A DNA stretch of 64,000 nt from Terriglobia bacterium (lineage in GTDB: Bacteria > Acidobacteriota > Terriglobia > Terriglobales > Acidobacteriaceae), in assembly GCA_020073385.1 (NCBI GenBank), contig JAIQFH010000006.1, forward strand, positions 186,001 to 250,000, in the 5' to 3' direction. Positions within the stretch are counted from its first letter, which is position 1. Each line of letters opens with the position of its first letter. The position numbers were made by a program, and so were the translations under genes. The notes under the pieces are model-generated. The model was given only the letters and a program-made list of their open reading frames with translations, searched no databases and was not told where the DNA came from. Positions 19,325 to 47,302 of this stretch are shown in pieces.

Positions 19325-19354
19325 AAAGCCTGAAAGCTCAAAGCTCCTAGCTGG
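19325..19354. repeat. Heptameric tandem array (AGCTNNN type)
   Basis: Four degenerate 7-bp units (AGCCTGA, AAGCTCA, AAGCTCC, TAGCTGG) stand between the two lipoprotein genes. It shares the period with the arrays at 32950, 33349, 39499, 39612, 45222 and 45411. Confidence 0.55.
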
Positions 19355-19424
19355 TCCTTACATCCATTGACGGCCCTGCCCGCATCTCTCTATTCTCGTA
19401 GTGACTCCATTCGAAGGACGGTTC

Positions 19425-20003
19425 ATGAAGAAGCTTGCCCTGGTGGCCCTGCTAGCGCTCGAACTCGCGGTCTCGGGATGCGGCACGAGCGGTGCGCCAC
19501 CGACGACGACCAACACTGAAGCTACGGGAAACTGGGAGGCGCAGCTTACCGGAGGTACGGACCAGGCCAGCCTGCTGAACTTCGTGACCACCTTCAATGT
19601 GACCAATAGCGGCCCCCTCGATGTGACCGGTTTTGGTTTCTTCAATGCGGGATCGTGTTTTGCGACCGGCACGACTGCTGAAACCGTCAGTGGTAACGCC
19701 AGCTTCACCACCAGTTCAACGAACACGGTCACGGGTACGCTCACTTTGACTGTGACATCGACCACGAACGGCAGTGTATTGACATTAGGCACACCAGCCC
19801 CTGCGACTCTGACCGGAACCTCCAACGGAACGACCACCACGACCGGTACGCTCAGCAACGGAGTGGTTGTGGGTCAGTGGTCCCTGTCGCCCGGGAGCAG
19901 CGCTACTGGCTGCAATGCGGCTAGCGGGAATTTCATCATGTGTCAGGGCAAAGCTACCTGTACTCCGACGACCGCGTCGGCTGCGATCAAGAAGCCCGAA
20001 TAG
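19425..20003 (+). CDS. Putative lipoprotein, second of a paralogous pair
   Basis: A 192-residue exported protein with signal MKKLALVALLALELAVSGCG (lipobox Cys near residue 19). The mature part is extremely rich in Thr, Ser and Gly and repeats short strands such as TVTGTLTLTVTSTTNGSVL. It shares with the upstream lipoprotein a GNWEAQLTGG strand after the signal, a SCFATG/PCFVSG Cys, and VVGQWSLSPGSS near the end, so the two are probably duplicates that diverged. The ATG at 19425 is preferred over one at 19401 because it begins the signal peptide. lpxD follows 44 bp later on the same strand. Confidence 0.8.
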   Translation: MKKLALVALLALELAVSGCGTSGAPPTTTNTEATGNWEAQLTGGTDQASLLNFVTTFNVTNSGPLDVTGFGFFNAGSCFATGTTAETVSGNASFTTSSTNTVTGTLTLTVTSTTNGSVLTLGTPAPATLTGTSNGTTTTTGTLSNGVVVGQWSLSPGSSATGCNAASGNFIMCQGKATCTPTTASAAIKKPE

Positions 20004-20047
20004 CTGACCCTTCCTTCGTCCCACATCTCTGCTATACAGTGAGAGCC

Positions 20048-21043
20048 ATGAAGCGTTCGCTTCGTGAGATCGCGGAAAGCCTCCAGGCGCGCCTGATTGG
20101 CGACGGCGAGATTGAAGTCGCCGGCGTGTCGAGCCTCGAATCGGCGTTGCCGGATCATCTTGTCTTCGTCGACGATGCGAAACATCTCGCCGGGGCGCTG
20201 CAATCCCGAGCGGGCGCGATCATTGCAGGAGAGTTTGCCGCCGCTGTGAATGCCGATCGTCCTGTGCTCATCAGCGATCATCCCAAGCTGGCCTTTGCCC
20301 GCGCTGCGCGCATGTTGGCCGATGACGGGCGGCAGCAGGGGAGTATTCACGCCAGCGCCGTGATTGATCCGTCCGCCACGGTCGGGGCGGGCGTGCGGGT
20401 CGAAGCGCGAGCAGTAGTCGGCGAAGGCGCACAAATTAGGAATGGCACCCGGATCGGCGCGGGGGCCGTGATTGGTGCCGGTGTCACGATTGGCAGTAGC
20501 TGCGAGATTTACCCGAACGTCACCATTTATCCGGGCACCAGCGTAGGTGACCGCGTACTGATTCATGCCGGGGCGGTGCTCGGCAGCGACGGCTTCGGCT
20601 ACGTGCGCGACGGAAAAACGGGACACTACGAAAAGTTTCCCCAGGTTGGACGACTGGTGATTGAAGACGATGTCGAGATCGGAGCGAATGCGACGGTCGA
20701 CCGCGGCGCGCTCGAGGAAACCCGCATCCGGCGAGGCACGAAGATCGACAACCTGGTGCACGTCGGCCACAACTGCGATATCGGCGAAGACGTAGTGATC
20801 GCCGCGCAGACCGGCCTCTCCGGCAGCATCATAATCGAGAACGGCGCGGTGCTTGGTGGACAGGTGGGCATCGGCGAACACGCAACCATTGGAGAGGGAG
20901 TCATGCTAGGTGGCCAGGGCGGAGTTCTGCCCAACAAAGTTCTCCGCGGCAAGGGCGTCGCGTTCTGGGGAACCCCTGCGCAGCCCCTGCGACAATACTT
21001 GAAGCAGTTGGCAACGCTAGCGCGGCTGGCTAAGAAAGATTGA
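20048..21043 (+). CDS. lpxD: UDP-3-O-acylglucosamine N-acyltransferase (LpxD)
   Basis: LpxD adds the second acyl chain to UDP-acyl-GlcN in lipid A synthesis, in the cytoplasm. The 331-residue product has the N-terminal uridine-binding domain (residues 1-100, SLREIAESLQARLIGDGEIE) and then a left-handed beta-helix made of hexapeptide repeats (e.g. IGAGAVIGAGVTIGSSCEIY), with the catalytic His in NLVHVGHNCDIGE near residue 240. Its presence supports a Gram-negative envelope. It is not next to lpxA or fabZ, which is the more usual setting. The ATG at 20048 gives the normal family N-terminus. Confidence 0.96.
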   Translation: MKRSLREIAESLQARLIGDGEIEVAGVSSLESALPDHLVFVDDAKHLAGALQSRAGAIIAGEFAAAVNADRPVLISDHPKLAFARAARMLADDGRQQGSIHASAVIDPSATVGAGVRVEARAVVGEGAQIRNGTRIGAGAVIGAGVTIGSSCEIYPNVTIYPGTSVGDRVLIHAGAVLGSDGFGYVRDGKTGHYEKFPQVGRLVIEDDVEIGANATVDRGALEETRIRRGTKIDNLVHVGHNCDIGEDVVIAAQTGLSGSIIIENGAVLGGQVGIGEHATIGEGVMLGGQGGVLPNKVLRGKGVAFWGTPAQPLRQYLKQLATLARLAKKD

Positions 21044-21063
21044 GTAGCGCCGGAAATGGGGTG

Positions 21064-21099
21064 CCCCACCCTTGTCGTGGTTTTTGCGACAGGGTGGGG
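21064..21099 (+). terminator. Hairpin after lpxD, possible terminator
   Basis: CCCCACCC (21064-21071) pairs with GGGTGGGG (21092-21099), extended inward by CTTGTCG/GCGACAG, and is followed by GTTTTG. It resembles the GGTGCCCCAC hairpin found inside rarA at 30011-30046, so it may be a dispersed repeat used as a terminator. Confidence 0.5.
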
Positions 21100-21135
21100 G
21101 TTTTGACTTTGAGTGACAATGCATCGGAGTCTCTG

Positions 21136-21759
21136 ATGTCGTTGGTGATCATCGGCGGACATTCACGCAGCGTTGGCAAAACCAGCGTCGTCGCGGGCCT
21201 GATCTCCGCCCTCGCCGAATTCGAATGGACCGCGGCGAAGATCACGCAATACGGCCACGGAATTTGCTCTGCCAACGGCGAAGCCTGCGACTGCGCCACA
21301 GGCGACCATTCATGGGCGATCACAGAAGAGCGCGACCGGACGGGAGAGTCCGACACGTCGCGCTTTTTGGTGGCCGGAGCCGCGCGGGTATTCTGGGTGC
21401 GAACCGAGCAGGGAAGACTGGCCGAGGCGATGCCCATGCTGCGCAAGCGGCTGGAAGGCGCACGCAATGTAATCATCGAATCCAACAGCATCTTGAAGTT
21501 CCTGCGCCCAGATCTCTATCTCACAATCCTCGATCCCGGCACGCCCGACTTCAAGAAATCCGCACAAGAATTTCTAGACCGCGCCGATGCGGTGATCCTG
21601 CACCAATCGCCCACCGACCCGTCGTGGCAGTCGGTTTCCCTGAAACCGGTTGCAGACTGCCCGGTCTTCCAGATCAAACCCCCAGAGTACGTGACTCCAC
21701 AAATCATAGAATTTGTGCGCGCGAAGTTGGGCATCGGCGCAGTCCCAAACAATCGCTAG
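21136..21759 (+). CDS. P-loop NTPase, MobB-like, with a Cys cluster
   Basis: A 207-residue protein with Walker A GGHSRSVGKTSVV near residue 7. This placement right at the N-terminus, and the SVGKT form, resemble MobB and dethiobiotin-synthetase-type P-loop proteins. Unlike MobB it has a Cys/His patch near residue 42 (CSANGEACDCATGDHSW) that could bind metal, then an Asp/Glu-rich segment and NVIIESNSILKF, a likely Walker B-like strand. The ATG at 21136 has GGAG nearby. It follows lpxD after a hairpin. I cannot assign a pathway; molybdenum-cofactor neighbours are absent. Confidence 0.75.
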   Translation: MSLVIIGGHSRSVGKTSVVAGLISALAEFEWTAAKITQYGHGICSANGEACDCATGDHSWAITEERDRTGESDTSRFLVAGAARVFWVRTEQGRLAEAMPMLRKRLEGARNVIIESNSILKFLRPDLYLTILDPGTPDFKKSAQEFLDRADAVILHQSPTDPSWQSVSLKPVADCPVFQIKPPEYVTPQIIEFVRAKLGIGAVPNNR

Positions 21760-21798
21760 AGGTTATCCCTAGCGCACACACATGCGTGAGCCGGGACT

Positions 21799-21906
21799 TG
21801 TCATCCTGATGCACGCGTTCGTTGCGGGCCGAAGGACCTATGTAATCTGCCGACAGCACAGATGCTGCCGCGATTGCACGGGTCCTTCGCTTCGCTCAGG
21901 ATGACA
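21799..21906. repeat. MITE-like element, 108 bp with 11-bp terminal inverted repeats
   Basis: TGTCATCCTGA (21799-21809) and TCAGGATGACA (21896-21906) are perfect inverted ends. Inside are CGAAGGACC and GGTCCTTCG as inner inverted arms. It has no ORF. It belongs with the elements at 16800-16897 and 24732-24855. Confidence 0.8.
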
Positions 21907-21938
21907 GGGGGGGCGATGGCACTGTAAACGGGCGACTA

Positions 21939-21994
21939 ACAAACTAACAACTACCAACTGAGAACTGAGAACTGAGAACTGAGAACTGAGAACT
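21939..21994. repeat. Heptameric tandem array, GAGAACT type
   Basis: Eight 7-bp units run without a break: ACAAACT, AACAACT, ACCAACT and then five perfect copies of GAGAACT. It ends 28 bp before the lnt start, so it lies in the lnt leader. Confidence 0.9.
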
Positions 21995-22022
21995 GCTTCC
22001 CGCTCTTTGCTATTCTTCCCAC

Positions 22023-23615
22023 GTGCGCCAAATCCACCCCAGCGCCTGGCTTCTCGCCGCTGTCTCGGCGATCTTGCAGGTCGTAATCTTCCCGCTGCCG
22101 GGCGTCTACGTCCTTTCCTGGTTTGCAATCGCACCGTTGCTGATTGCCCTGCTGGGCGCACGCCGCGCCGGAGAGTTGGAGTTCGCCGGCTCGGTCCGCC
22201 TGCATCCGGCCACGCCGTGGCAGGGATTTCTGCTCGGCTACATCTGCGGCATCGTCTGGTACGCGGGAACCTGCTACTGGATTTACGACACGATGCGCCA
22301 GTACGGTGGCCTAAGCGCGCCCATGGCGCTGCTGGCCCTGGTTCTCTTTTGCTGTTATCTCGGCCTGTATCACGGAGTCTTCGGACTAGTCGTGAGCTTG
22401 CTCGCCCGTCCGCACGACCATCGTCGGGCCCTGGTGCTGGCTCCATTCCTGTGGGTCGCCATCGAATTGGCGCGAACCCGCATCAGCGGATATCCCTGGA
22501 ACCTGCTCGGCATCGCGCAGATCGATAATGTCGCACTCTGCCGCATTGCCGGCTTCACAGGCGTGTACGGAATTTCTTTCGAAATCGTGCTGGTCAACGT
22601 CGCGATTGCTGCCGCATTTCTGATCCCGCGGGCGAAGCGTGGCATGATGTTTGCCGCTGCTCTCGCTGCCGCCGCAGTGTTGCAATCAGGCAGGCTCATC
22701 GAAGCCCCGCCCGCCAAGGCCGACCACGCCGCGTTACTGGTGCAGCAGAACATCCCGGTTGCAGCCGATTGGACTCCTGCCCAACTCGAGCAGACGCTGC
22801 ACGAACTGACTGAACTCACCATCAACGCCGCTACGAGCAATGCGGGGACGAAAATCGATCTCATCGTCTGGCCTGAATCCCCCGCACCCTTTTTCACAAA
22901 TGACGCAAACTTCCGAGCGATCGCGAGCGATATGGCGCGCCAGACGGGCGCCTGGATCGTTGTCGGTGCCATCGGCAGCAACGCCCCGCATCCCAACGAC
23001 GAGCGTCCGTTATTCAACTCTGCCGCACTCATCAGCCCGCAGGGCGACTGGACGGCGCGCTACGACAAAGTTCATCTCGTCCCCTTCGGCGAATATCTTC
23101 CGTTCCCGAGCCTGTTCTCGTTCGCAGGAGGATTGACCAAGGAAGTCGGCCGGTTCGAGCGCGGCAAGTCGCGCCAGTCCTTAAATGCCGGCGGCGAGCA
23201 ACTAGGCCTCTTCATCTGCTACGAGTCGATCTTTCCCAATGAAGTCCGCCAGTCCGCCGATCTTGGCGCGCAAGTGTTCGTGAACATCTCGAACGACGGC
23301 TGGTACGGCGACAGCGGCGCCTACGCCCAGCACCTGAATCAGACCCGCATGCGCGCCATTGAGAACGACCGCTGGCTGCTCAGCGCGACCGACACCGGCG
23401 TCACCGCCGCGATCGATCCCTGGGGACGCATCGCCGCCCGCATCGCCCGCAAGGAGCGGACCACGCTCGTCGCACCGTATGCCCTCAATCCGATCACCAC
23501 GTTTTATACCCGCCACGGCGACTGGTTCGCTTTTGTGTGTGCGATAATTTTAATTGCAGCATTCATTGAGCGCTTCACATTCGCAAACCGCAAGAAGGCT
23601 GATACGTCCTCATGA
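22023..23615 (+). CDS. lnt: Apolipoprotein N-acyltransferase (Lnt)
   Basis: Lnt N-acylates the lipoprotein Cys at the inner membrane, the last step of Gram-negative lipoprotein maturation. The 530-residue protein has about six N-terminal membrane segments (residues 8-230), a periplasmic nitrilase domain, and a final membrane segment FAFVCAIILIAAFIERF. The catalytic triad is visible as E285 in VWPESPAPF, K349 in RYDKVHLVPFGEY and C399 in LFICYESIF. The start is a GTG. Its TGA stop overlaps the prfB start as ATGA (23612-23615), so the two are probably translationally coupled. It would process the lipoproteins encoded in this window. Confidence 0.96.
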   Translation: MRQIHPSAWLLAAVSAILQVVIFPLPGVYVLSWFAIAPLLIALLGARRAGELEFAGSVRLHPATPWQGFLLGYICGIVWYAGTCYWIYDTMRQYGGLSAPMALLALVLFCCYLGLYHGVFGLVVSLLARPHDHRRALVLAPFLWVAIELARTRISGYPWNLLGIAQIDNVALCRIAGFTGVYGISFEIVLVNVAIAAAFLIPRAKRGMMFAAALAAAAVLQSGRLIEAPPAKADHAALLVQQNIPVAADWTPAQLEQTLHELTELTINAATSNAGTKIDLIVWPESPAPFFTNDANFRAIASDMARQTGAWIVVGAIGSNAPHPNDERPLFNSAALISPQGDWTARYDKVHLVPFGEYLPFPSLFSFAGGLTKEVGRFERGKSRQSLNAGGEQLGLFICYESIFPNEVRQSADLGAQVFVNISNDGWYGDSGAYAQHLNQTRMRAIENDRWLLSATDTGVTAAIDPWGRIAARIARKERTTLVAPYALNPITTFYTRHGDWFAFVCAIILIAAFIERFTFANRKKADTSS

Positions 23616-24713
23616 ATCAAGAGTTAGAACAGGAATACGAAAAGCTGAGCAAGAAAGCCCACGATCTCCGGGAGTATCTTTGACGCGGAGAAGGTCCGTC
23701 CGCAGCTAGCCGAAATCGAAAAGCAGGCTTCCGACCCCAAGTTGTGGTCGAATCCACAGCGCTCGCAGCAGGTCATGCGAGAGAAGAAGCGTCTGGAGCA
23801 CGTGCTTGCCACCGACGCCGACCTGGCACGCCGGGCCGACGACATCAACGCGTACTTGGATCTCGGAAAGGAAGGCGAAAACGTCGACGCCGACCTGCAG
23901 CGCGAAATCACTTCTCTCCGCGACCTGATCGACCAACTCGAAACCGAGACGCTGCTTTCGGGCGAAAATGACGCCCGCAACGCCATCGTGACCATTCATC
24001 CCGGTGCCGGAGGCACCGAGTCGCAGGACTGGGCCGACATGCTGCTGCGCATGTACCTGAGATGGGCCGAGCGCCAGGGTTTCGAAACCGTGCTTTACGA
24101 CTATCAGCCCGGGGACGAAGCCGGATTGAAGTCAGCGACCTTTGCTGTGAACGGCGATTACGCCTTCGGCCTGCTGCAGGGCGAGATCGGCGTGCATCGC
24201 CTGGTCCGCATCTCCCCGTTCGATCAGGCCAAGCGCCGGCATACCTCGTTTGCCAGCGTGTTCGTCTCCCCCGAAATCGACGACAGCATCGAAATCGTAG
24301 TCAAGCCGGAAGACATCCGCATCGATACTTACCGCTCAAGTGGCAAGGGTGGGCAGCACGTGAACACCACAGACTCTGCCGTGCGCATCACGCATATTGC
24401 CACCGGTCTGGTGGCCAATTGCCAGAACGAACGCTCGCAGCACAAGAACAAAGAGCGTGCCATGAGTATGCTGCGCTCGAAGCTTTACGAATTCGAAATG
24501 GAAAAGAAGCGAGCGGCTACGAAGAAGATCGAAGACTCGAAACTCGACATCGAGTTCGGATCGCAGATCCGTTCCTACGTGCTGCAGCCGTACCGCATGA
24601 TCAAAGACCACCGGACAAAAGCGGAAGTTGGCGATGTCGATCGCGTTCTCGACGGAGACCTACAGCCATTCATCCGCGCGTATTTATTGGCACGACGCGG
24701 AGAGAAACAGTGA
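23612..24713 (+). CDS. prfB: Peptide chain release factor 2, with programmed +1 frameshift
   Basis: RF2 ends translation at UGA and UAA. Translation starts at ATG 23612 and reaches an in-frame TGA at codon 24 (23681-23683). The site reads GGGAG-TAT-CTT-TGA-C, i.e. an SD-like element three bases ahead of CTT, matching the classic RF2 autoregulatory frameshift. After a +1 shift, reading resumes with GAC at 23682 and runs to 24713, giving 366 residues, close to E. coli RF2 (365). The recognition motif SPF is in RISPFDQAKRR and the catalytic GGQ in SSGKGGQHVN near residue 245. The start overlaps the lnt stop. Confidence 0.96.
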
Positions 24714-24731
24714 CTCGTTGTGCCCACGGCT

Positions 24732-24855
24732 TTGTCATCCTGAGGCCCGCGCTTTTAGGGGGCCGAGGGACCTTGCGATGCGCGTGCAGCGCCGATACTG
24801 ACGCAAAGTACATAGGTCCTTCGGGCCGCAAAAACTGCGGCCCTCAGGATGACAA
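24732..24855. repeat. MITE-like element, 124 bp with 19-bp terminal inverted repeats
   Basis: The left end starts TTGTCATCCTGAGG (24732) and the right end finishes CCTCAGGATGACAA (24855); the 19-base arms match at 18 positions. Inner GGTCCTTCGGGCCGC is shared in part with the element at 21799. No ORF. Confidence 0.8.
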
Positions 24856-24885
24856 GGCTTGAGTTGCACCGAAAGAACTAGCACC

Positions 24886-25515: not shown

Positions 25516-25518
25516 ATC

Positions 25519-26808: not shown

Positions 26809-26821
26809 CGTTGGAGGACTT

Positions 26822-27235: not shown

Positions 27236-27253
27236 ACTCGCTCGCAGAGTCCC

Positions 27254-31797: not shown

Positions 31798-32958
31798 GTG
31801 TCTGAAACGGCCGTCTCCCCCGCAACTACCCACACCCTGGAATGGCTCGCCCTATCGCTTACGCCCGGCCTTGGCCCGACGAAAGCCCGAAAGCTCGCCG
31901 AACATTTCGGATCGTCTGAAGCCATATTCCGCGCCTCGCTGACCGAGCTGGAGAGCACCGGCATCCAAGCGGTTTCGGCCCAATCGATCGCGACAGGGAA
32001 GTCGATGGAATTGGCTCGCGAGGAAATGGCGGGCGCAGCCGACGCTGGCGTCACCGTAGTGTCCGTCGCAGATGCATCCTATCCAACGCGCCTGAAAGAA
32101 ATCTACGATCCCCCGGCTATCCTTTATGTGCGTGGTGACGCCGAGTTGCTGACCAAACCCGGCATTGCCGTGGTGGGAACTCGTCATCCGACGCCCTATG
32201 GTTCGGGGATGGCAGAGCGCCTGGCCTGCGATCTCGCCTCGCAGGGCTTGGTCATTATTAGTGGCATGGCCCGTGGTGTCGATACGGCCAGCCATCGCGG
32301 CGCAATTGCGGCCAAAGGGAAAACCGTCGCCGTATTCGGCACCGGCGTCGATGTCATTTACCCCAAGGAGAACTCGCGTCTCTCAGAACAGATTCTCGCG
32401 CTCGGCGGAGCGCTCATTTCCGAATTTCCTCTAGGGACCTTTGCCGCGCCGCAAAATTTTCCGATTCGCAACCGCATCCTGAGCGGCATGTCGGTCGGCG
32501 TGCTGGTGGTGGAAGCCGCCGAATATTCCGGCACGCGCATCACCGCCCGCCTCGCGCTTGAGCAGAATCGTGACGTCTTTGCCGTACCTGGCAACGTGAC
32601 CAACAAAAATTCCTGGGGACCGAACACACTCATCAAACAGGGTGCCAAACTGGTAGCAACCTGGGAAGACGTGTGGGAGGATCTCCCGACAGAAGTACGA
32701 CTTGCATTGACCCCGCCCGCCTCCTCTGAATCCCAAGCCTCGTCCGCCGCATCTCTATTTCCGGACGACGGGCTTCCTCCACACGAAAAGCTCCTCCTGA
32801 GCCTGCTGAAAGCTGACGAGGCCACGCACATCGACGAACTCGTCGAAAAGCTGGAATCGCAAATGTCTTCCTCCGAAATCTTCGCCGCCCTGTTCGAACT
32901 CGAGCTCACGGGCAAAGTACGACAGATGCCGGGGAAGAATTTTGTGAAGAGCTTCTAG
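31798..32958 (+). CDS. dprA: DNA-processing protein DprA (Smf)
   Basis: DprA loads RecA on incoming single-stranded DNA during natural transformation. The 386-residue protein has an N-terminal SAM-like region (LSLTPGLGPTKARKLAEHFG), the Rossmann-like core with IAVVGTRHPTPYGSGMAERL near residue 123 and VIISGMARGVDTASHRGAI near 152, FPLGTFAAPQNFPIRNRIL near 213, and a C-terminal winged-helix (DEATHIDELVEKLESQMSSS). The start is a GTG. Its last codons and TAG stop (AGC TTC TAG) lie inside a heptameric array that begins at 32950. Confidence 0.95.
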   Translation: MSETAVSPATTHTLEWLALSLTPGLGPTKARKLAEHFGSSEAIFRASLTELESTGIQAVSAQSIATGKSMELAREEMAGAADAGVTVVSVADASYPTRLKEIYDPPAILYVRGDAELLTKPGIAVVGTRHPTPYGSGMAERLACDLASQGLVIISGMARGVDTASHRGAIAAKGKTVAVFGTGVDVIYPKENSRLSEQILALGGALISEFPLGTFAAPQNFPIRNRILSGMSVGVLVVEAAEYSGTRITARLALEQNRDVFAVPGNVTNKNSWGPNTLIKQGAKLVATWEDVWEDLPTEVRLALTPPASSESQASSAASLFPDDGLPPHEKLLLSLLKADEATHIDELVEKLESQMSSSEIFAALFELELTGKVRQMPGKNFVKSF

Positions 32959-32977
32959 CTGCTAGCTTCTAGCTAGG
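32950..32977. repeat. Heptameric AGCTNNN array at the end of dprA
   Basis: Units AGCTTCT, AGCTGCT, AGCTTCT and AGCTAGG follow each other exactly. The dprA stop codon is within the first unit. The first 25 bases are the reverse complement, with one mismatch, of 33356-33380 on the other side of the four-helix gene. Confidence 0.9.
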
Positions 32978-32989
32978 CAAGGAGGAATG

Positions 32990-33361
32990 ATGGAAAACTT
33001 CAAGAATTTAAAGGTTTGGAGCAAGGCTCACGAGTTGACATTGGACATCTACCAGTGCACGCGCAGTTTTCCGAAAGATGAAATGTACGGATTGACAAGT
33101 CAGATGCGGCGGGCGGCTGCTTCGATCGGAGCCAACATTGCTGAAGGTTGCGGTCGCAGGTCCGATCCGGAGATGAGGCGGTTCGTTCAGATCGCTCGCG
33201 GATCAGCGAATGAGTTGGAGTATCACTTACTTTTAGCGAAAGATCTCCAGTTCCTGACACCCGACGAATATAGCGAATTGGAAGTGAGAATATTGGAAAT
33301 CCAACGAATGCTAGCAGCGCTGTCCCAACGATTACAGCGTCCGGTTTTAGCTACAAGCTAG
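32990..33361 (+). CDS. S23-like four-helix-bundle protein
   Basis: A 123-residue protein of the four-helix family known as S23 or intervening-sequence protein (also the bAvd fold). Typical marks are the opening FKNLKVWSKAHELTLDIYQC, SFPKDEMYGLTSQMRRAAAS, the signature IGANIAEGCGRR near residue 45, and GSANELEYHLLLAKDLQFL. The second of two adjacent ATGs (32990) is chosen because AAGGAGG is then four bases away. Its last four residues and TAG stop are encoded by a heptameric array. Near-perfect inverted arrays lie on both sides. No reverse transcriptase or rRNA gene is close. Function unknown. Confidence 0.92.
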   Translation: MENFKNLKVWSKAHELTLDIYQCTRSFPKDEMYGLTSQMRRAAASIGANIAEGCGRRSDPEMRRFVQIARGSANELEYHLLLAKDLQFLTPDEYSELEVRILEIQRMLAALSQRLQRPVLATS

Positions 33362-33386
33362 GAGCTAGCAGCTAGAAGCTTTCAGC
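33349..33386. repeat. Heptameric AGCTNNN array at the end of the four-helix gene
   Basis: Units AGCTACA, AGCTAGG, AGCTAGC, AGCTAGA and AGCTTTC follow in register. The four-helix gene ends inside it (TAG at 33359-33361). Bases 33356-33380 match the reverse complement of 32950-32974 at 24 of 25 positions. Confidence 0.9.
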
Positions 33387-35970: not shown

Positions 35971-35977
35971 TAGCGGT

Positions 35978-36053
35978 GAGCAATGGGCGATGGGCAGTGA
36001 GCGATGAGTAAATGCCCTGGCTTGTGACTCATTGCTCGTAGCTCTTTGCTCAA
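35978..36053. repeat. Heptameric GAGCRAT-type array and partial inverted partner
   Basis: Units GAGCAAT, GGGCGAT, GGGCAGT and GAGCGAT run from 35978 to 36005. A degenerate inverted stretch (GACTCAT, TGCTCGT, AGCTCTT, TGCTCA) lies at 36026-36053. GAGCAAT is a rotation of the reverse complement of GCTCATT, the unit found at 36147-36179. Confidence 0.7.
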
Positions 36054-36074
36054 GGCCTCCCCTGAGAATCGGAA

Positions 36075-36137
36075 ACCACAAAGGACACGAAGGCACACGA
36101 AGTAGATTCCTTCGTGCATCTTCGTGCCCTTAGTGGT
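36075..36137. repeat. Large hairpin of the GTGTCCTTCGTGGT family
   Basis: ACCACAAAGGACACGAAGG (from 36075) pairs with CTTCGTGCCCTTAGTGGT (ending 36137) over arms of about 28 bases with a few mismatches. It lies between two inverted heptamer arrays, so the whole 35978-36179 segment is a nested palindrome. Confidence 0.75.
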
Positions 36138-36146
36138 TATCGCATT

Positions 36147-36179
36147 GCTCACCGCTCATTGCTCATTGCTCATTGCTCC
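36147..36179. repeat. Heptameric tandem array, GCTCATT type
   Basis: GCTCACC and then three perfect GCTCATT units and a partial one (GCTCC). It ends 31 bp before the next start codon, so it is part of that gene's leader region. Confidence 0.9.
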
Positions 36180-38575: not shown

Positions 38576-38617
38576 ACAAAGCTTTTCTTCGCGTGACGCA
38601 GGAGTCCACAACAACCG

Positions 38618-39493: not shown

Positions 39494-39498
39494 AGAAG

Positions 39499-39534
39499 CC
39501 TCTAGCTTCTAGCTCCTGGCTTCTGGCTTCCAGC
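39499..39534. repeat. Heptameric AGCTYCY array after mqnD
   Basis: Units AGCTTCT, AGCTCCT, GGCTTCT and GGCTTCC run from 39504. They are in the opposite orientation to the array at 39612-39637, with about 80 bp in between. Confidence 0.85.
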
Positions 39535-39611
39535 AAACCTCAGTCCCTCGAGCAGCCCTTTTCCGTGCCACGCGATGAGGACACCAGAGACGCATTTGCC
39601 GATTTGTGTTT

Positions 39612-39637
39612 AGCTGGAAGCTAGGAGCTAGAAGCTT
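39612..39637. repeat. Heptameric array that carries the ribosome-binding site of the HAD gene
   Basis: Units AGCTGGA, AGCTAGG, AGCTAGA and AGCTT. AGGAG at 39623-39627 is formed across two units and lies eight bases before the TTG start of the HAD gene at 39636. Confidence 0.8.
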
Positions 39638-40328: not shown

Positions 40329-40340
40329 TACCCATGTAGC

Positions 40341-40359
40341 GACAGCCGCCTCGGCTGTC
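40341..40359. repeat. GACAGCCG hairpin between convergent genes
   Basis: GACAGCCG and CGGCTGTC flank a three-base loop, 13 bp after the HAD gene and between convergent genes. The same stem occurs at 42793-42814. It may help end transcription, but no poly-T follows. Confidence 0.65.
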
Positions 40360-40406
40360 CCGCGAAGGCGAAGCCAAGCGGCATTTTCCCCAAAGCCTGC
40401 AGCGAT

Positions 40407-41336: not shown

Positions 41337-41472
41337 CAGACAGCAGGAATCATCTCCGTTACTCTCATTTCAGTTACTATCGCATCAAACTAACCAACAC
41401 CGCTCCTCTCGCGCTCGCTATTCTCCGCATGCTACCCTTTTTCTGCTCTGCGATCTGGCTCCCACTTCGTCG

Positions 41473-42723
41473 GTGGCGATTCAGACCAACAATTTAAGGC
41501 GGTTGCTGCACACGGTCGAGGCGCTTTCCGAACTCGGGCCCGCGCTGACGGCTGAGCGCGAGTTCTCGGAAACCTCGCGACTTATGCTGTCTGCCGTCAT
41601 GGAAGCAGCGGGCGCGCGCGAAGGCGCGCTGTTTTTGTTTAGTGAGAAACCTGCTGTCCTGACTTCCACCACCGCCTTGGGATTCGCCCTCATGCCGGAT
41701 CCCGCCTTCATTCCTCTCCTTCCCAAACACGTGCACGCGCTGACTGCAGCGCGCGGACCCATCGTTCTCAATTCCTCGACTTACTCGGTCTTCCTGAGTT
41801 CGAATGGCAACGTCGCTCCCGAACTCTTCAAGTGTCTTGCTCCCCTGAAAGCCGGAGGCCGTCTTGCCGGCGTCATCGGCCTTGGCCGCCGTCCCGGCGA
41901 GGCGCTCTACGAAGACAGCGAACTCGACGCCCTCGAACTGCTTTGCAGCTACGTCGCGCTTGCGGTTCAGAATCACGCCCTGACACAGACCATCGCGCAG
42001 CGTGTCTCCGAGAACTTGCGTCTCATGGCTTCGCTGCACGGCTTCTACGACAATGCGCTCGAAGCCTTCGCCAGCGCCATTGACGTCAAGCATGTCAACA
42101 TTCACGGCCACTCCTTGCGCGTTGGCCGCTACGCCGCCGCCATCGGAGACGCCATGGGCATGGATCCCAACGAAGTCGCCTCCCTGCGCAGCGCTGGCTA
42201 TCTGCACGATATCGGCAAAGTCGCCGTCGACCGCCGCCTCTTCGGCAAAACCAGTGCGCTCGATCCGGATGAATTCCGCGAGATGGCCGATCACACCACG
42301 GTCGGCCACCAGATTGTCCGCAGCGTGACGTTTCCCTGGCCCAGGATTCCTGAGACCGTGCGCTGGCATCACGAACGCAGTGATGGCTCCGGCTATCCCG
42401 ACAAGCTCATGCAAGAAGAAGTGCCACTGTCTGTGCGCATCATCGGCGTCGCTGATTCATTCGACGCCATGACCACCGTGCGTCCCTACCGCGCCCCGTT
42501 GTCGATCGGAAGTGCGCTCAGCGACCTCGTGCGTCTGGCGCCAGAGAAGTTCGATCCCAATGTCGTCCAGGCGCTGCTGATCCAGGTCCGTCGCGACGCG
42601 GTTGGCAGCAGCAGGACACCGCTGCTTGAAGGCACGTCCGTCAACATCGCCGCCGCTGACATCGATCATCTGGCCGCGACCCTGCAGCACAAAGTGTCCC
42701 GCGGCAAGATCATCTCCATTTAG
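41473..42723 (+). CDS. GAF plus HD-GYP domain protein, putative c-di-GMP phosphodiesterase
   Basis: HD-GYP proteins hydrolyse cyclic di-GMP. The roughly 416-residue protein has a GAF domain at about 20-180 (REGALFLFSEKPAVL; GRLAGVIGLGRRP) and an HD-GYP domain at 190-400 with VKHVNIHGHSLRVGRYAAAI, HD in YLHDIGKVAVDRRLF near 246, HTTVGHQIV near 275, HHERSDGSGYPDKL (GYP) near 303, and ADSFDAMTT near 330. All metal-binding positions appear intact. The start is unclear: a GTG at 41473 is chosen because the upstream frame to 41284 overlaps the divergent epimerase gene. Confidence 0.9.
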   Translation: MAIQTNNLRRLLHTVEALSELGPALTAEREFSETSRLMLSAVMEAAGAREGALFLFSEKPAVLTSTTALGFALMPDPAFIPLLPKHVHALTAARGPIVLNSSTYSVFLSSNGNVAPELFKCLAPLKAGGRLAGVIGLGRRPGEALYEDSELDALELLCSYVALAVQNHALTQTIAQRVSENLRLMASLHGFYDNALEAFASAIDVKHVNIHGHSLRVGRYAAAIGDAMGMDPNEVASLRSAGYLHDIGKVAVDRRLFGKTSALDPDEFREMADHTTVGHQIVRSVTFPWPRIPETVRWHHERSDGSGYPDKLMQEEVPLSVRIIGVADSFDAMTTVRPYRAPLSIGSALSDLVRLAPEKFDPNVVQALLIQVRRDAVGSSRTPLLEGTSVNIAAADIDHLAATLQHKVSRGKIISI

Positions 42724-43058
42724 CCTCGGTTTTTCCCAGCAGCCTATGTGGAATGGCAATGTGTCGAATGGTTATGTCGAACGGTTATGTGGGGACAGCC
42801 GTCTTCGGCTGTCCAGCGAGCGAAGCGAGCGCACTGCGAGCCGCCACGAACTGTTTGCCCCAACTAAGAGATCCTGTGCACCGCCGTGGAAGCGGCGCTT
42901 TAGTGCGCCATGAGCCGCGCATACCGAGGCAAGCTCTAGTCCTGCTCTGAAATCCCTGTCCCACAACGACTTCCGCCCTCGGGCGGATCTCGCATGCCAG
43001 CAACTTTTCCGGCGGTCCGGGTTCATAATCAAAAGATTCGTCTTTCCGGGGAGTCCCA
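42724..43058. other. Intergenic region with hairpins between the HD-GYP and DUF1800 genes
   Basis: This 335-bp gap has a near-duplication TGTCGAATGGTTATG/TGTCGAACGGTTATG at about 42761-42790, the GGACAGCCG hairpin at 42793-42814, and an AAGCGGCGCTTTAGTGCGCC hairpin near 42893. No ORF is convincing. The DUF1800 promoter should be in the last 100 bp. Confidence 0.5.
42793..42814. repeat. GGACAGCCG hairpin downstream of the HD-GYP gene
   Basis: GGACAGCCG and CGGCTGTCC are perfect nine-base arms around TCTT. It shares its stem with the hairpin at 40341-40359 and lies 70 bp after the HD-GYP gene. Confidence 0.7.
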
Positions 43059-45224
43059 ATGCGACCCAGCCCGACCCGCGTAGCGCTGTTACTTCTGTGT
43101 CTCAGCCTTGCCTGCGCTGTCCCGCAATTACTCGCCAGGAAGAAAGACCAGCCCGCCGACACTCCGAACGAACAGAAGCGCGCGGTACACGCCCTGAATC
43201 GCCTCACCTTCGGCGCTCGTCCCGGCGACGTGCAGCAGGTAATGGCGATGGGTGTCGACCGCTGGATCGACCTCCAACTGCATCCTGAAAAAATCGCCGA
43301 TAAAGACGTGGAAGCCCGCCTCGAACCCCTCCGCACAGTGCGCATGAGCACGAAAGAAATCCTCGAGGACTTTCCTGACGGTCAGATGGTGAAGCAAGTC
43401 GCGGACGGCAAGCACGCCATGCCTTCCGATCCGGCGCGCCGTGCGGTGTATCAGGTGCAGGTGGCGCGCTTCGATGAAAAGCAGGAAAGAAAAGAGAAGA
43501 AAGCAGCCGCCCAGCCTCCCGTTCCCGCCGAAGAACTCGCTGCTGCAGCGGCCGCCTCAGCAGATTCCGCGTCGCCCGATGCCAACGCGATGAATGCCAT
43601 GACAACCAAAAACGCCGCGGCTGAGGTTCGTGTAGGGGCGGACGCCGCGTCCGCCCTGCGGAGCGGAGCGACGCATGCCGCACTCACGCCCCAGCCAACT
43701 CCCGCCGATGCAGCCCAAGCGCGTCGCCGCGAAGTTCGCCTCTATACCGACTTAAAAATCCAGGCACTCATCGACCTCCCGCCCAACGAGCGCTACAAGA
43801 AGGTGCTCGCCATGTCAGCCGATGAGCAGGTCGCATTCGCCGACTCGCTCAGGAAGGGCAAGGGGCAGGAGTTTCTCGAGGGCCTCGATCCCCGGCAAAA
43901 AGAAGTCCTGCAGGCCATGAACAATCCGCCCGCAGTGGTAGTTGATGAACTCTCGCAGGCCAAACTGCTGCGCGCCGTCTACAGCGAACGCCAACTCGAA
44001 GAAGTGATGACCGACTTCTGGTTCAACCACTTCAATGTTTTCATCGGCAAGGGCCCAGAGCGGTTGCTGATCACGAACTATGAGCAGGTTGTGATCCGCC
44101 CCCATGCGCTCGGCAAATTTGAAGACTTGCTCGTGGCCACCGCGAAGAGTCCGGCCATGCAGTTCTATCTCGATAACTGGCTGAGCGTCGGCCCGAACTC
44201 TCCGCAGACTGAGGGCCTACCGCGGCGGCCTGCTGTCCGGTTCGGTCGCTACGGCCGTCCGCGCGTGCCTCGCGGACCCAATCTCAACTCAAAGCGCAAG
44301 CAGAACAGTGGCCTGAACGAAAACTACGGCCGCGAGTTGCTCGAACTGCACACGCTTAGTGTGAACGGCGGCTACTCCCAGCGAGATGTCACAGAGGTCG
44401 CCAAGGTCTTCACCGGTTGGACCATTGACAAGCCTTTCGAGGGAATGACCTTCCGCTACGATCCGCACATGCACGAGCCGGGACCGAAGTTTGTCCTGGG
44501 ACACCGCATCAAGCCCAAGGGCGAAGATGAGGGCAGGGAAGTGCTGCACATGCTCGCGACCAGCCCGCAGACCGCGCACTTCATTTCGCTGAAGTTGGCG
44601 CAGCGTTTCGTATCCGACGATCCGCCGCCCGCGCTGGTCGATCGCATTGCCAAGACATTTCAGAAGAAAAAAGGCGACATTCGCGAAGTGCTGTCGACGC
44701 TTTTCCATTCTCCCGAATTCTGGGCTGACGGAACCTATCGCGCTAAGGTGAAAACTCCGCTGGAGTTCGTCGCCTCAGCCGTTCGCGCGACCGGAGCGAG
44801 CGTCGACGATGCGTTGCCCCTCGTCCGCCAGCTGAATAATATGGGCATGCCTCTCTACGGAGCGCAGCCGCCCACTGGATACTCGATGAAGGCCGATACA
44901 TGGGTCAGTTCGGCAGCTTTGCTCAACCGCATGAATTTTGCCCTGGCTCTGACCTCAGGCAAGGTCCGAGGCGTAAAAGTCGATGCCGTGCAATTGGTGG
45001 CCAGCCCGACTCTGCCACCGGATGCGGTCGCCACGCTTTCCACAATGGAAGCCAAGCTTCTGGCATCCGATGTCTCGAAGCAAACCCACGACTCGATCCT
45101 CGAGCAGCTGGACACGCCCACGAAAAACGGCGATAAGAAAGACAAGCCCCCGCAGCCCAAGCCGCCAGACGTAAACACGATGGCGGGATTATTGTTAGGT
45201 TCACCAGAATTTCAGAGAAGATAG
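43059..45224 (+). CDS. Secreted DUF1800-domain protein
   Basis: The 721-residue protein starts with a signal peptide (MRPSPTRVALLLLCLSLACA) and carries the DUF1800 fold: RAVHALNRLTFGARPGDVQQ near residue 41, EVMTDFWFNHFNVFIGKGPE near 315, and then NYGRELLELHTLSVNGGYSQ near 424 and VTEVAKVFTGWTI. Residues near 193-205 (GADAASALRSGATH) are coded by a hairpin repeat (43637-43655) within a low-complexity Ala-rich segment. Its stop codon lies at the start of a heptameric array. A DUF1501 gene follows after 236 bp, the usual partner of DUF1800 in many bacteria. The biochemical role of the pair is unknown. Confidence 0.93.
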   Translation: MRPSPTRVALLLLCLSLACAVPQLLARKKDQPADTPNEQKRAVHALNRLTFGARPGDVQQVMAMGVDRWIDLQLHPEKIADKDVEARLEPLRTVRMSTKEILEDFPDGQMVKQVADGKHAMPSDPARRAVYQVQVARFDEKQERKEKKAAAQPPVPAEELAAAAAASADSASPDANAMNAMTTKNAAAEVRVGADAASALRSGATHAALTPQPTPADAAQARRREVRLYTDLKIQALIDLPPNERYKKVLAMSADEQVAFADSLRKGKGQEFLEGLDPRQKEVLQAMNNPPAVVVDELSQAKLLRAVYSERQLEEVMTDFWFNHFNVFIGKGPERLLITNYEQVVIRPHALGKFEDLLVATAKSPAMQFYLDNWLSVGPNSPQTEGLPRRPAVRFGRYGRPRVPRGPNLNSKRKQNSGLNENYGRELLELHTLSVNGGYSQRDVTEVAKVFTGWTIDKPFEGMTFRYDPHMHEPGPKFVLGHRIKPKGEDEGREVLHMLATSPQTAHFISLKLAQRFVSDDPPPALVDRIAKTFQKKKGDIREVLSTLFHSPEFWADGTYRAKVKTPLEFVASAVRATGASVDDALPLVRQLNNMGMPLYGAQPPTGYSMKADTWVSSAALLNRMNFALALTSGKVRGVKVDAVQLVASPTLPPDAVATLSTMEAKLLASDVSKQTHDSILEQLDTPTKNGDKKDKPPQPKPPDVNTMAGLLLGSPEFQRR
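43637..43655. repeat. Hairpin repeat inside the DUF1800 gene
   Basis: GGCGGACG and CGTCCGCC form an eight-base stem with a three-base loop, preceded by GTAGG. It keeps the reading frame and encodes GADAASA in a variable linker. It looks like an inserted intergenic-type repeat. Confidence 0.6.
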
Positions 45225-45246
45225 CTACGAGCTCCTAGCTAGCTGA
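45222..45246. repeat. Heptameric array at the end of the DUF1800 gene
   Basis: Units TAGCTAC, GAGCTCC, TAGCTAG and CTGA; the first TAG is the DUF1800 stop codon. It is paired with a larger array at 45411-45459. Confidence 0.7.
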
Positions 45247-45410
45247 ACGGATAACAGCCTTGTGTTCCTCTGTGCTTCACAGAGATGACGTGAATGAGGG
45301 TGGGGAATGATCGCAGTGAGGAATGGGATGGAATGTGGAGTGAGGTGGAAGACCGGCCCTTTAGGCCGCGTTAGTGCCGCAAAGATTTCAGGGGCTTTAG
45401 CCCCCGTGCA

Positions 45411-45459
45411 AGCTTCTAGCTGGGAGCTAGGAGCTAGCAGCTAGGAGCTAGGAGCTTCT
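45411..45459. repeat. Seven-unit heptameric array that carries the ribosome-binding site of the DUF1501 gene
   Basis: Seven units in exact register: AGCTTCT, AGCTGGG, AGCTAGG, AGCTAGC, AGCTAGG, AGCTAGG, AGCTTCT. AGGAG at 45450-45454 is formed across units six and seven, six bases before the ATG at 45461, an ideal spacing. No other ribosome-binding site is present. Confidence 0.92.
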
Positions 45460-45460
45460 T

Positions 45461-46702
45461 ATGCCAACTCGCCGCATCTTCCTCCGCAACAGCGCTCTCG
45501 CCGTCGTCGGCACGGCCGCGGTCCCAAGCTTCCTGACCCGCGCCGCTTTCGGAGTCACCGAGAACGCCGCTCGTCCCAAGCGCCTGGTCGTGATCTTCCA
45601 ACGCGGCGCGGCCGATGGACTCAATATCGTCGTCCCTCATGGCGAGCCGCAGTACTACGCCATGCGTCCCAGCATCAACATTCCTAAGAAGTCGGTCCTC
45701 GATCTCAACGGATTTTTCGGACTTCATCCGTCTCTCGCGCCCTTTCACCCGCTGTGGCAGCAGCGTCACCTCGCAATCGTTCATGCCGCGGGATCGCCCG
45801 ACTCCACCCGCTCGCATTTCGATGCCCAGGACTTTATGGAGTCCGGCACGCCCGGTGTAAAAATCACCGAAGACGGATGGCTCAACCGTTCCCTGCATAG
45901 CCTGCCCGCTGCTCCGAAGAATTCTCCTTTTCGCGCCATCGCTCTCGGTCCGTCGCTTCCCCGCATCCTGAGCGGTGCCGAGCCCGCGGTCGCGATGAAT
46001 AACATCGACGATTTTTCTCTCGGCGGAAAAAATCCCAAGCCCTCGCGCGCGGCTACCGCATTTGAGGCCATGTACGACCACTCCTCCGACAGCGTGCTGC
46101 ACACCACCGGCGAGGAGACTTTCGACGCCGTCAAGATGTTGAAGGCCGCCGATCCCGGCAAATACTCACCCGCGCCCGGGGCCAATTATCCCAAGGGACG
46201 CTTCGGCGACAGCCTCCGTCAACTCGCCCAGCTGATCAAAGCGAATCTTGGTGTGCAGATCGCTTTCGCCGACATCAGCGGCTGGGACCATCACGTCAAC
46301 GAGGGCGCAACCGAAGGCCAACTCGCCAACGTGCTCTCAGATTTCTCGCAATCGCTGGCCGCGTTCTGGACCGATCTCGGCGATCTCGGCGAAGACACGG
46401 TGATTGTCACCATGTCGGAGTTCGGCCGCACCGCCCGTGAGAACGGCAACCGCGGCACCGACCACGGTCACGCCAACGTGATGTTTATCTTGGGTGGCCC
46501 GGTCAAGGGAGGCAAAGTCTACGGCCGCTGGCCCGGTTTAGACCAATCCCAACTCTATGAAGGCCGCGACCTCGCGCTGACCACCGACTTCCGCCAGGTA
46601 ATCGGCGAAGCCATCGCCATGCATTTAGGCAACAGAAATCTCGCGCAGGTCTTCCCCGCCTACGACAACCAGCCCACAAGATTCCTCAAGCTTCTAGCGT
46701 GA
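45461..46702 (+). CDS. Tat-exported DUF1501-family protein
   Basis: The 413-residue protein starts with a twin-arginine signal (MPTRRIFLRNSALAVVGTAA). The DUF1501 fold belongs to the alkaline-phosphatase/sulfatase-like superfamily: KRLVVIFQRGAADGLNIVVP near residue 34, ARSHFDAQDFMESG-type motif at about 120 (here RSHFDAQDFMESG), FADISGWDHHVNEG near 269, and TVIVTMSEFGRTARENGNRG near 315 then DHGHANVMFILGG. These give the metal-binding Asp/His set. It follows the DUF1800 gene, its usual partner. Its ribosome-binding site lies in a heptameric array. Confidence 0.93.
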   Translation: MPTRRIFLRNSALAVVGTAAVPSFLTRAAFGVTENAARPKRLVVIFQRGAADGLNIVVPHGEPQYYAMRPSINIPKKSVLDLNGFFGLHPSLAPFHPLWQQRHLAIVHAAGSPDSTRSHFDAQDFMESGTPGVKITEDGWLNRSLHSLPAAPKNSPFRAIALGPSLPRILSGAEPAVAMNNIDDFSLGGKNPKPSRAATAFEAMYDHSSDSVLHTTGEETFDAVKMLKAADPGKYSPAPGANYPKGRFGDSLRQLAQLIKANLGVQIAFADISGWDHHVNEGATEGQLANVLSDFSQSLAAFWTDLGDLGEDTVIVTMSEFGRTARENGNRGTDHGHANVMFILGGPVKGGKVYGRWPGLDQSQLYEGRDLALTTDFRQVIGEAIAMHLGNRNLAQVFPAYDNQPTRFLKLLA

Positions 46703-46830
46703 CGTAGCGCCGAAATCGTGCCACCTGTGGCGGGGGCCGTCTTACCGACGAATAGCGAACCGTCGACCGTTCTCAATCTTGGAGAGCAATAAATCTTGGA
46801 GATCACAGAACGTGATTAACACGTGGATTG

Positions 46831-46876
46831 AGCCGCGCAGCGGCGGAATGTGACAGCCCGGCCCGGAACTGCCCGG
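46831..46876. repeat. Dispersed palindromic repeat between the DUF1501 and Rieske genes
   Basis: AGCCGCGCAGCGGCGG followed by AATGTGA (46831-46853) matches 38497-38519 with two differences. A second hairpin, GCCCGGCCCGGAACTGCCCGGG, follows at once. The rest of this 250-bp convergent gap holds nothing I recognise. Confidence 0.65.
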
Positions 46877-46953
46877 GAAGATGGAGCAGAGAGAGAGCAA
46901 ATCCACTTCAGCGGACGGCAGCCTTCGCGTTCCAGGATTGTGGCAGGCGCAAG

Positions 46954-47259
46954 CTAGATATCGATGAACACTTCCCCGTCCTCAACCTTGATCGGATACG
47001 TCTTCAACTTCTGATCAGGATGATCCACTGCCACGCCCGTCTTTGGATCCCATTTCCATGCATGCCACGGGCAAACGATCTTTCCGTCTTCCACCATGCC
47101 CTGTCCCAGCGAGCCACCCTGGTGCAGGCACTCGTTGTCCATGGCGCTAAGCTTGCCCCAGACGTTAGCGATGCAGATCATTTTTCCGTTGCAGGGAAAG
47201 TCCCGCACTTCGTTGGTGGTGGGTAGATGAGCCTGGGAAATGATCCGGGTGAAGGCCAT
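46954..47259 (-). CDS. Rieske [2Fe-2S] ferredoxin-like protein
   Basis: A 101-residue Rieske-fold protein. The cluster ligands are C-x-H in DNECLHQGGSL near residue 44 and C-x2-H in VCPWHAWKWDPKTG near residue 63, which gives the two-Cys/two-His set. Length and sequence (QAHLPTTNEVRDFPCNGK, KLKTYPIKVEDGEVFIDI) resemble the small subunit-type NirD/ferredoxin Rieske proteins rather than membrane Rieske subunits. It lies 50 bp downstream of nuoB on the same strand, with a heptameric array in its leader. The partner oxidoreductase is not evident. Confidence 0.93.
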   Translation of the reverse strand: MAFTRIISQAHLPTTNEVRDFPCNGKMICIANVWGKLSAMDNECLHQGGSLGQGMVEDGKIVCPWHAWKWDPKTGVAVDHPDQKLKTYPIKVEDGEVFIDI

Positions 47260-47278
47260 AGTTCAGGATTTTTCTGAG

Positions 47279-47302
47279 AGCTGACAGCTGATAGCTGAGA
47301 GC
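47279..47302. repeat. Heptameric AGCTGAN array in the nuoB-Rieske gap
   Basis: Units AGCTGAC, AGCTGAT and AGCTGAG plus AGC. It fills half of the gap between nuoB and the Rieske gene and ends about 20 bp from the Rieske start codon. Confidence 0.8.

Follow-up and report, generated by a model that had tools for sequence, protein, structure and literature searches.

Paired, inverted heptanucleotide tandem arrays of a Terriglobia bacterium, with and without an enclosed gene of the S23 four-helix-bundle family

We analysed a window of 64,000 nucleotides from the Terriglobia bacterium assembly GCA_020073385.1 (contig JAIQFH010000006.1, positions 186,001 to 250,000), in which short tandem arrays with a unit of 7 bp recur. 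Several of these arrays face each other as inverted pairs: AGCTTCT-type arrays lie opposite AGCTAGA-type arrays at 32950/33349, 39497/39612 and 45223/45411, and GAGCAAT lies opposite GCTCATT at 35972/36143. The first pair encloses a gene of the 23S rRNA intervening-sequence protein (IVP) or S23 family. Our data suggest that such paired arrays are probably the inverted ends of a mobile element of approximately 0.4 kb without a transposase, the sole gene of which encodes this S23/IVP four-helix bundle, together with gene-less hairpin derivatives that have kept the arms. The arms comprise approximately three to six units with a period of usually 7, and at least part of the arrays in the window are arms of an element in which the four-helix-bundle gene is present or may formerly have been present.

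The 124-aa protein encoded between the first pair is a clear member of PF05635 (E 3.4e-42; 143.4 bits compared to a curated cut-off of 33.8), a protein family named four helix bundle protein by NCBI, and it matches TIGR02436 with 135.1 bits (cut-off 24). An AlphaFold model of its 101-aa domain, aligned with 19 relatives, has four helices with a predicted local distance difference test score (pLDDT) of 94.6 and superposes with Xanthomonas 2gsc (XCC0516) at a TM-score of 0.95 and a root-mean-square deviation of 0.9, identifying the fold as a four-helix bundle. The Xanthomonas S23 protein was described as a toroidal homopentamer (PMC4990558). Weaker matches of the model were obtained for Avd (4dwl) and for reverse-transcriptase complexes of diversity-generating retroelements (8ube, 8ub7), with model-normalised TM-scores of 0.78-0.83 and Foldseek E-values of 0.06-0.4; the likeness of PF05635 to Avd was already pointed out (PMC10053308). 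We rejected an assignment as Avd since the NCBIfam Avd model scores 29.9 bits compared to a cut-off of 80; the protein is like Avd in its fold and unlike it by this sub-cut-off score and by its neighbours dprA and topA. No reverse transcriptase was present among nine window proteins scanned. In those three of six orthologue pairs with computable dS, the ratios of nonsynonymous to synonymous substitution (dN/dS) were 0.09, 0.08 and 0.04, showing the gene being under purifying selection; broken gene copies exist as well, e.g. with an in-frame stop in genome G001. Using one query protein, we obtained no match in 50,697 phage records. As a side observation, Xanthomonas campestris, the species of 2gsc, was listed among the ten genomes richest in repeats of 5-11 nt (PMC4679880).

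All three PF05635 genes of the genome from which the window derives lie between inverted arrays, the units being AGCTNNN (period 7), GTTTCANN (period 8) and ATTGCCG (period 7). Within the class the gene is present in 33 of 41 genomes (106 rows), of which 92 rows were examined and 14, mostly partial or weak, were left out. At a period score threshold of 8.5, period 7 was detected in 60% of the upstream (n=92) and 80% of the downstream flanks (n=91) compared to 2% and 7% of the windows taken as controls at a distance of 700-900 bp (n=89 for each side). The corresponding flank values were 10% and 12% for period 8 and at most 1% for each of the periods 3-6 and 9-12. A scan of the genome collection delivered 80 named loci, showing period 7 in 64% of 77 upstream and 58% of 79 downstream flanks versus 4% and 4%. 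Based on the taxonomy of the records, arrays occur on both sides in at least one locus for 17 of 22 phyla, many of these records being metagenome-assembled genomes and possibly misbinned; the 17 include Acidobacteriota, Bacteroidota, Nitrospirota, Chloroflexota, Planctomycetota, Cyanobacteriota, Pseudomonadota and Spirochaetota as well as the archaeal Methanobacteriota and Nanobdellota. Verrucomicrobiota is the weakest, with arrays on both sides in two and on neither side in three of six loci. If both sets are pooled (171 of 172 elements examined; L126 of the named set appears to duplicate L043 of the unnamed set, as both have the same arms and a contig of equal length) and any period from 5 to 11 is allowed, arrays lie on both sides of 119 elements, on one side of 44 and on neither side of eight. 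The same rule applied to 600 of 1135 small open reading frames (ORFs) from a sample of the window's genome gave one ORF with arrays on both sides, 62 with an array on one side and 537 without, suggesting that the one-sided cases are partly background. Period 7 alone was present on both sides of 90 of 167 four-helix-bundle genes and of one of the 600 control ORFs. For cyanobacteria, arrays of period 7 or 8 lie on both sides in 23 of 27 gene rows, on one side in two and on neither in two, the rows being derived from three genomes and six plasmids and not representing 27 independent cases, because some represent fragments of a single broken gene and several others are loci that had been counted before.

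Left and right arms are reverse-complementary to each other, with a pairing score of at least 13 in 150 of 168 elements compared to 23 of 504 left-right pairs formed across elements and 9 of the 600 control ORFs, and unit-specific variants are often matched in the same order between the two arms of one element. Both arms share the same period in 114 of the 119 two-sided elements (95 at 7, 16 at 8, two at 9 and one at 6). The similarity of the units depends on the identity of the encoded proteins: among 137 elements it amounts on average to 0.48-0.71 at 70% protein identity or more, 0.13 at 60-70% and 0.02-0.05 below 60%. As units are clearly alike only between elements with proteins at least 70% identical, period and pairing are kept while the sequence drifts, and terminal inverted repeats of fixed sequence were not found, arm similarity being near background once proteins are less than 60% identical. 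This accounts for the combination of a constant period with variable unit sequences, which a sequence-only reading of the window had attributed to a shared generating process and not to shared ancestry of each copy: the units vary between arrays since each array is an arm belonging to a larger structure. The shared process agrees with the enrichment of period 7 reported below. As to ancestry, the statement fails for elements with proteins at least 70% identical, which have units in common; the treatment of the arrays as free-standing repeats has to be given up for at least part of them, these being inverted arms of a larger element.

The same reading had placed 11 arrays in at least ten gene gaps. 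Tandem Repeats Finder (TRF) reported period-7 (or 14 or 21) rows at ten of the 11 coordinates; the remaining array, 45222, has no TRF row, and its three imperfect units are present at 45223-45244 and pair with the array at 45411, which has the seven AGCTNNN units ascribed to it (45411-45459). The 11 arrays occupy approximately eight gaps, several of them forming pairs, and the arrays at 32950 and 33349 are not purely intergenic, as they overlap the ends of dprA and of the 124-aa ORF. Enrichment of period 7 had been set beforehand as a test, and it was clearly present: 757,918 bp of the window's genome contained 28 period-7 arrays, whereas three dinucleotide shuffles gave 0.67 on average, each of the other periods from 2 to 21 being represented by 0-7 arrays. 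This sample consists of the window and 40 stretches, of which 20 were chosen according to the number of the contig and 20 came from long contigs, including contigs already known to hold AGCT arrays, so that the array density is indicative only. In the 8.23-Mb genome, three AGCTNNN units followed by AGCT match the forward strand 68 times if overlapping matches are counted individually, and the reversed pattern as a control has no match. The sample comprises 37 arrays with a period of 7, 14 or 21, and an inverted partner within 400 bp was detected for 22 of them compared to 0 of 37 with shuffled flanks.

These data bear on replication slippage as a source of the arrays. As related in PMC4679880, Mrazek et al. 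(2007) proposed that heptamers are favoured since approximately 7 nt are held by the DNA polymerase; arrays could then arise anywhere. Slippage would explain the 7- and 14-bp whole-unit differences between copies of one insertion described below, and it may trim or extend arms and make unpaired arrays. As a general explanation we consider it very unlikely, since the arrays form inverted pairs in which unit-specific variants often correspond in register, since they bracket one gene family across phyla while random small ORFs lack such bracketing, and since both arms of an element have a common period of 6, 7, 8 or 9. A second gene family in the same genomes argues in the same direction. GxxExxY proteins (PF13366, PDDEXK_3; the one tested belongs to TIGR04256) account for 42 rows in 16 of the 41 class genomes. 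We took 30 loci (L356-L385), 25 with full flanks, and found inverted arms with a score of at least 15 in 22 of the 25 compared to 7 of 75 cross pairs. Among these 22, L362 is a 15-base match without an array. A typical arm has the sequence AACCACAGAGGACACAGAGGACACAG and about three units. At threshold, the two flanks show period 9 in 24% and 20%, period 10 in 20% and 16% and period 8 in 4% and 8% of the 25 loci, and period 7 in 0 of 25 on either side. GxxExxY arms have a period of 9-10 and never 7, and this is our strongest argument for a period determined by the encoded protein and not by the DNA polymerase.

Comparison of related Nostocales plasmids shows the element being present or absent as a whole unit. 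Trichormus variabilis plasmid C (L191) has an additional 428 bp compared to Nostoc linckia (L299), with flanks 99.1% and 98.4% identical, composed of the left array, the gene, the right array and the sequence GTAAT, which occurs at either junction; no array surrounds the junction in the empty plasmid. In a second case, the site is filled in Nostoc ATCC 53789 (L193) and empty in Nostoc C057 and C052 (L306, L302), with TTCTA repeated and flanks of 91-93% identity, and again the empty sites contain no array. The elements of L191 and L193 are 78% identical over just the element and occupy unrelated sites, and a third relative (82%) is located at a third site in Aulosira, where related plasmids lack the whole element and the junctions are not clean. 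One element family of 78-82% identity is thus present at three different plasmid sites, and gene-less copies are dispersed as well. The repeated pentanucleotides tentatively suggest a 5-bp target duplication. Clean junctions were not obtained for L188, L189, L190, L277, L278 and L386, the flanks being too diverged or rearranged, and for L192 no empty site was found among the best 12 of 121 records. Copies of one insertion differ by whole units, i.e. by 14 bp in one arm (L191/L305) or by 7 bp (L277/L312), and L300 has a truncated copy at the L191 site.

Heptamer hairpins might instead pre-exist for other reasons and serve as landing places, the four-helix-bundle genes inserting into their loops. 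This is consistent with gene-less hairpins outnumbering gene-bearing ones and with one plasmid site that has a gene-bearing element, a gene-less hairpin or neither in related plasmids (L277, L310, L311). We consider it unlikely, because the empty sites in L299 (compared to L191) and in L302 and L306 (compared to L193) lack an array at the junction, showing that arms and gene came or went together. Two further plasmids deserve mention. L310 (Nostoc ATCC 53789 pNsp_c, approximately 820-1050) has a gene-less heptamer hairpin where L277 and L312 carry the gene, possibly an intermediate of loss or gain. In L298 (a Dolichospermum plasmid, approximately 716-960) the cas6-cas4 gap has, judged by eye, a different insert, with GTAGGTTGGGTTGACGC at one end and its inverse at the other; the same gap in Anabaena sp. 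90 contains a four-helix-bundle element, the flanks being 98.7-99.4% identical to those of L298.

Most arrays have no gene between them. Applying a stricter rule to 1.48 Mb of nine genomes, we found loops below 250 bp in 15 of 18 inverted pairs. One of the three longer-loop pairs is the element of the window. The remaining pairs were found in L351, with ORFs of 115 aa (NuoK-like by eye) and 382 aa (a mechanical ORF) between their arrays. We rejected these ORFs as additional cargo genes, since self-complementary hairpins were revealed by BLAST at 16591-16672 and 17011-17110, and the pairs are therefore taken to be arms from separate hairpins adjacent to each other. In one relative, two gene-less hairpins are 88% identical over 121 bp, lying 2.6 kb apart within unrelated flanks. 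In three genomes having 4, 5 and 7 genes, period-7/14 arrays reach densities of 13, 9 and 12 per 100 kb, compared to 3.4, 2.0, 1.4, 0 and 1.1 per 100 kb in five genomes with no or one gene, whereby the matches shown for the low-density group are GC-rich low complexity and a few of those in the high group are plain 14-mers and not heptamers. AGCTNNN arrays are present in 26 of the 33 genomes with and in one of the eight without the gene (Fisher p 0.001), and array and gene counts correlate with a rho of 0.70 over the 41 genomes and of 0.61 within the genus.

Dispersed gene-less hairpins beside rarer gene-bearing copies are typical for REPIN/RAYT systems and for miniature inverted-repeat transposable elements, and the present hairpins with their gene-less copies resemble REPINs. 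They differ from both in that the gene-bearing copy lacks a transposase and in that the period of the arms is fixed and not their sequence. If the hairpins were moved by a Y1 transposase (REP-associated or of the IS200/IS605 type), the four-helix-bundle gene would be a passenger. The genome has seven Y1 transposase matches, none of the seven genes has period-7 arrays on both sides and two have one on one side, making this possibility extremely unlikely.

Among the closest described relatives of the elements are the intervening sequences (IVS) in the 23S rRNA genes of Coxiella and Leptospira containing an S23p ORF, as these share the S23 family, a size of approximately 0.4 kb and inverted repeats (PMC4990558). 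The IVS was termed a selfish genetic element, and heptameric GACAGAT tandem repeats were described upstream of the Coxiella S23p ORF (PMC4990558). According to this description, the IVS is located in 23S rRNA, whereas the present elements lie between ordinary genes, have arrays on two sides and many different units, and exist as gene-less copies; the element of the window lies between dprA and topA and not in a 23S rRNA gene, Rfam at gathering scores giving no match in the window. By analogy, the arms might act as RNA, with the transcript folding, RNase III cutting the element out as in the 23S rRNA IVS and the hairpin being under selection. That the S23 family and heptamers are known together from the RNase III-excised Coxiella IVS (PMC4990558) and that heptamer hairpins occur in the Nostoc trnL intron (PMC3488679) both speak for such a role. 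Arm mismatches in 137 elements show no bias for G-U wobble pairs on the sense strand (173 sense-type and 190 antisense-type), and of 40 loci scanned, out of the 80 named, none has its gene inside a structured RNA known so far; four matches to Rfam were obtained, all located more than 1 kb from the gene. We therefore regard RNA arms as decidedly unlikely.

For the putative mobile element, we propose a model according to which the four-helix-bundle protein, a five-chain torus in the solved relative, would recognise the evenly spaced units of the arms. Recognition by spacing would conserve the spacing and allow the unit sequence to drift. The element and its gene-less copies may be moved in trans by a nuclease or recombinase of the host or of other origin, and gains and losses of whole units could tune the length of the arms.

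Several observations weigh against this reading. The PF05635 gene is the one ORF found between the arms at 32950-33380, i.e. no transposase is present in the element, and no mobilising enzyme was identified. Eight of the 171 elements have no array and 44 are one-sided, one-sided arrays being also seen in 62 of the 600 controls. Target duplication of 5 bp was seen at two of seven sites compared (GTAAT in L191, TTCTA in L193), L188, L189, L190, L277 and L386 being ambiguous, and L278 as an eighth site likewise has no clean empty site. We do not claim a general target duplication, as the excess of shared flanking 6-mers is slight (13 compared to 4.8 expected in 142 elements) and mostly due to arm palindromes. 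Arrays are as scarce in two one-gene genomes as in gene-free genomes. The correlation of gene and arrays is confounded by phylogeny and completeness, and within family f2 the comparison (4/7 versus 0/7, Fisher p 0.07) is suggestive only. No inverted partner was found within 400 bp for 15 of the 37 arrays, including those at 13128, 21935 and 47274 of the window. The genome has three genes compared to 28 period-7 arrays in 9% of its length; as gene-less arrays far outnumber the genes, we do not derive all arrays from such elements. Finally, the elements located between dprA and topA were rejected as one clade: their 18 genes fall into a 23-tip clade together with five others at a support of 0.75 (FastTree). 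As these genes do not form one clade, we refrain from postulating an in-place change of the unit within one element.

The features of the window are compiled in Table 1. The gene-bearing element has dprA and topA as neighbours. A four-helix-bundle gene beside topA was found in 18 of 25 genus genomes searched (L234-L251, L025), with approximately three unit types, and the dprA-topA genes fall into about three groups by unit type in the FastTree tree. The array provides the dprA stop codon in several genomes of the genus, and by eye G006 and one G005 copy have remnants only in the dprA-topA gap.

Table 1. Arrays, arms and associated features of the window (positions counted from its first nucleotide)
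Feature	Position	Strand	Remarks
CCAACGA-type array, missing from the sequence-only reading	13128..13153	+	no partner within 400 bp; unit as in arms of L030, L052, L058, L072
Weak array, about three units	19324..19346	+	TRF; under census threshold
Single GAGAACT array	21935..21995	+	no inverted partner within 400 bp; unit as in arms of the gene-bearing relatives L031, L054
dprA stop codon	within arm 32950..32974		dprA ORF 31798-32958; codon furnished by the array
Left arm of gene-bearing element	32950..32974	+	AGCTTCT AGCTGCT AGCTTCT AGCT; inverted pairing with right arm, score 19-23
Four-helix-bundle gene (23S rRNA intervening-sequence protein/S23 family), 124 aa	32987..33361	+	PF05635 match
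Right arm of gene-bearing element, inverted	33349..33380	+	AGCTACA AGCTAGG AGCTAGC AGCTAGA AGCT; overlaps gene end
Left arm, gene-less pair, GAGCAAT type	35972..36008	+	TRF
Second-class hairpin, AACCACAAAGGACACGAAGGCACACGAAG and inverse	36074..36138	+	by eye; resembles arms of GxxExxY elements; inside GAGCAAT pair
Right arm, gene-less pair, GCTCATT type	36143..36178	+	TRF; inverted score 21
Left arm, gene-less pair, AGCTTCT type	39497..39534	+	TRF; inverted score 19
Right arm, gene-less pair, AGCTAGA type	39612..39636	+	TRF; 77 bp from left arm
Left arm, imperfect, gene-less pair	45223..45244	+	AGCTACG AGCTCCT AGCTAGCT; absent from TRF report
Right arm, gene-less pair, seven AGCTNNN units	45411..45459	+	TRF; inverted score 15
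Single AGCTGAN array	47274..47302	+	no inverted partner within 400 bp; unit as in arms of L056, L065

Heptamers of this kind were reported piecemeal, from cyanobacteria, Beggiatoaceae, Nostoc markers of lichens and the Coxiella 23S gene, with no common origin given in the parts of these reports considered here. The short tandemly repeated repetitive (STRR) sequences are hairpin-forming 7-bp repeats of unknown function (PMC2670836), and the P6b element of the Nostoc trnL intron contains pairing heptanucleotide repeats (PMC3488679). The present arrays agree with the STRR description, being dispersed 7-bp tandem units able to form hairpins (PMC2670836), and the link to STRR heptamers suggested from the sequence alone is strengthened, as arms of this type also flank the four-helix-bundle gene in Nostoc, Anabaena, Calothrix, Trichormus, Moorena and Sphaerospermopsis. 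The descriptions of STRR sequences and of the trnL intron, in the passages considered, name no gene partner, whereas the arms here bracket the four-helix-bundle gene in 23 of the 27 cyanobacterial rows. The TAACTGA repeats of Beggiatoaceae form intergenic heptamer arrays scattered across phyla and were proposed as possible sites of a post-transcriptional regulator, the passages considered naming no four-helix-bundle gene (PMC4679880); the left arm of the Moorena element L279 has the unit TAACTGA if the opposite strand is read. Both the presence of heptamers next to an S23 gene (Coxiella IVS) and the formation of hairpins by heptamers (STRR) are hence already in print; among the matches listed from the open-access literature, most subscription journals being outside this scope, no paper joins four-helix-bundle/S23 genes to heptamer arrays in general.

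As a wider proposal, to which we give somewhat less than even credence, the elements could represent a widespread type of transposase-less mobile element with ends read by spacing, in which the period is set by the protein (7-8 for the S23 type, 9-10 for GxxExxY nucleases) and the unit drifts freely, and the gene-less hairpins of which would have given rise to the majority of heptanucleotide repeats, among them the STRRs of cyanobacteria and the heptamers of 23S rRNA IVS. The tie to one gene family makes the origin of heptamers testable and may explain heptamers of unclear source. It furthermore provides a genomic context for two orphan families, i.e. the four-helix bundle TIGR02436 and GxxExxY TIGR04256, and suggests that DNA ends can be marked by period instead of sequence.

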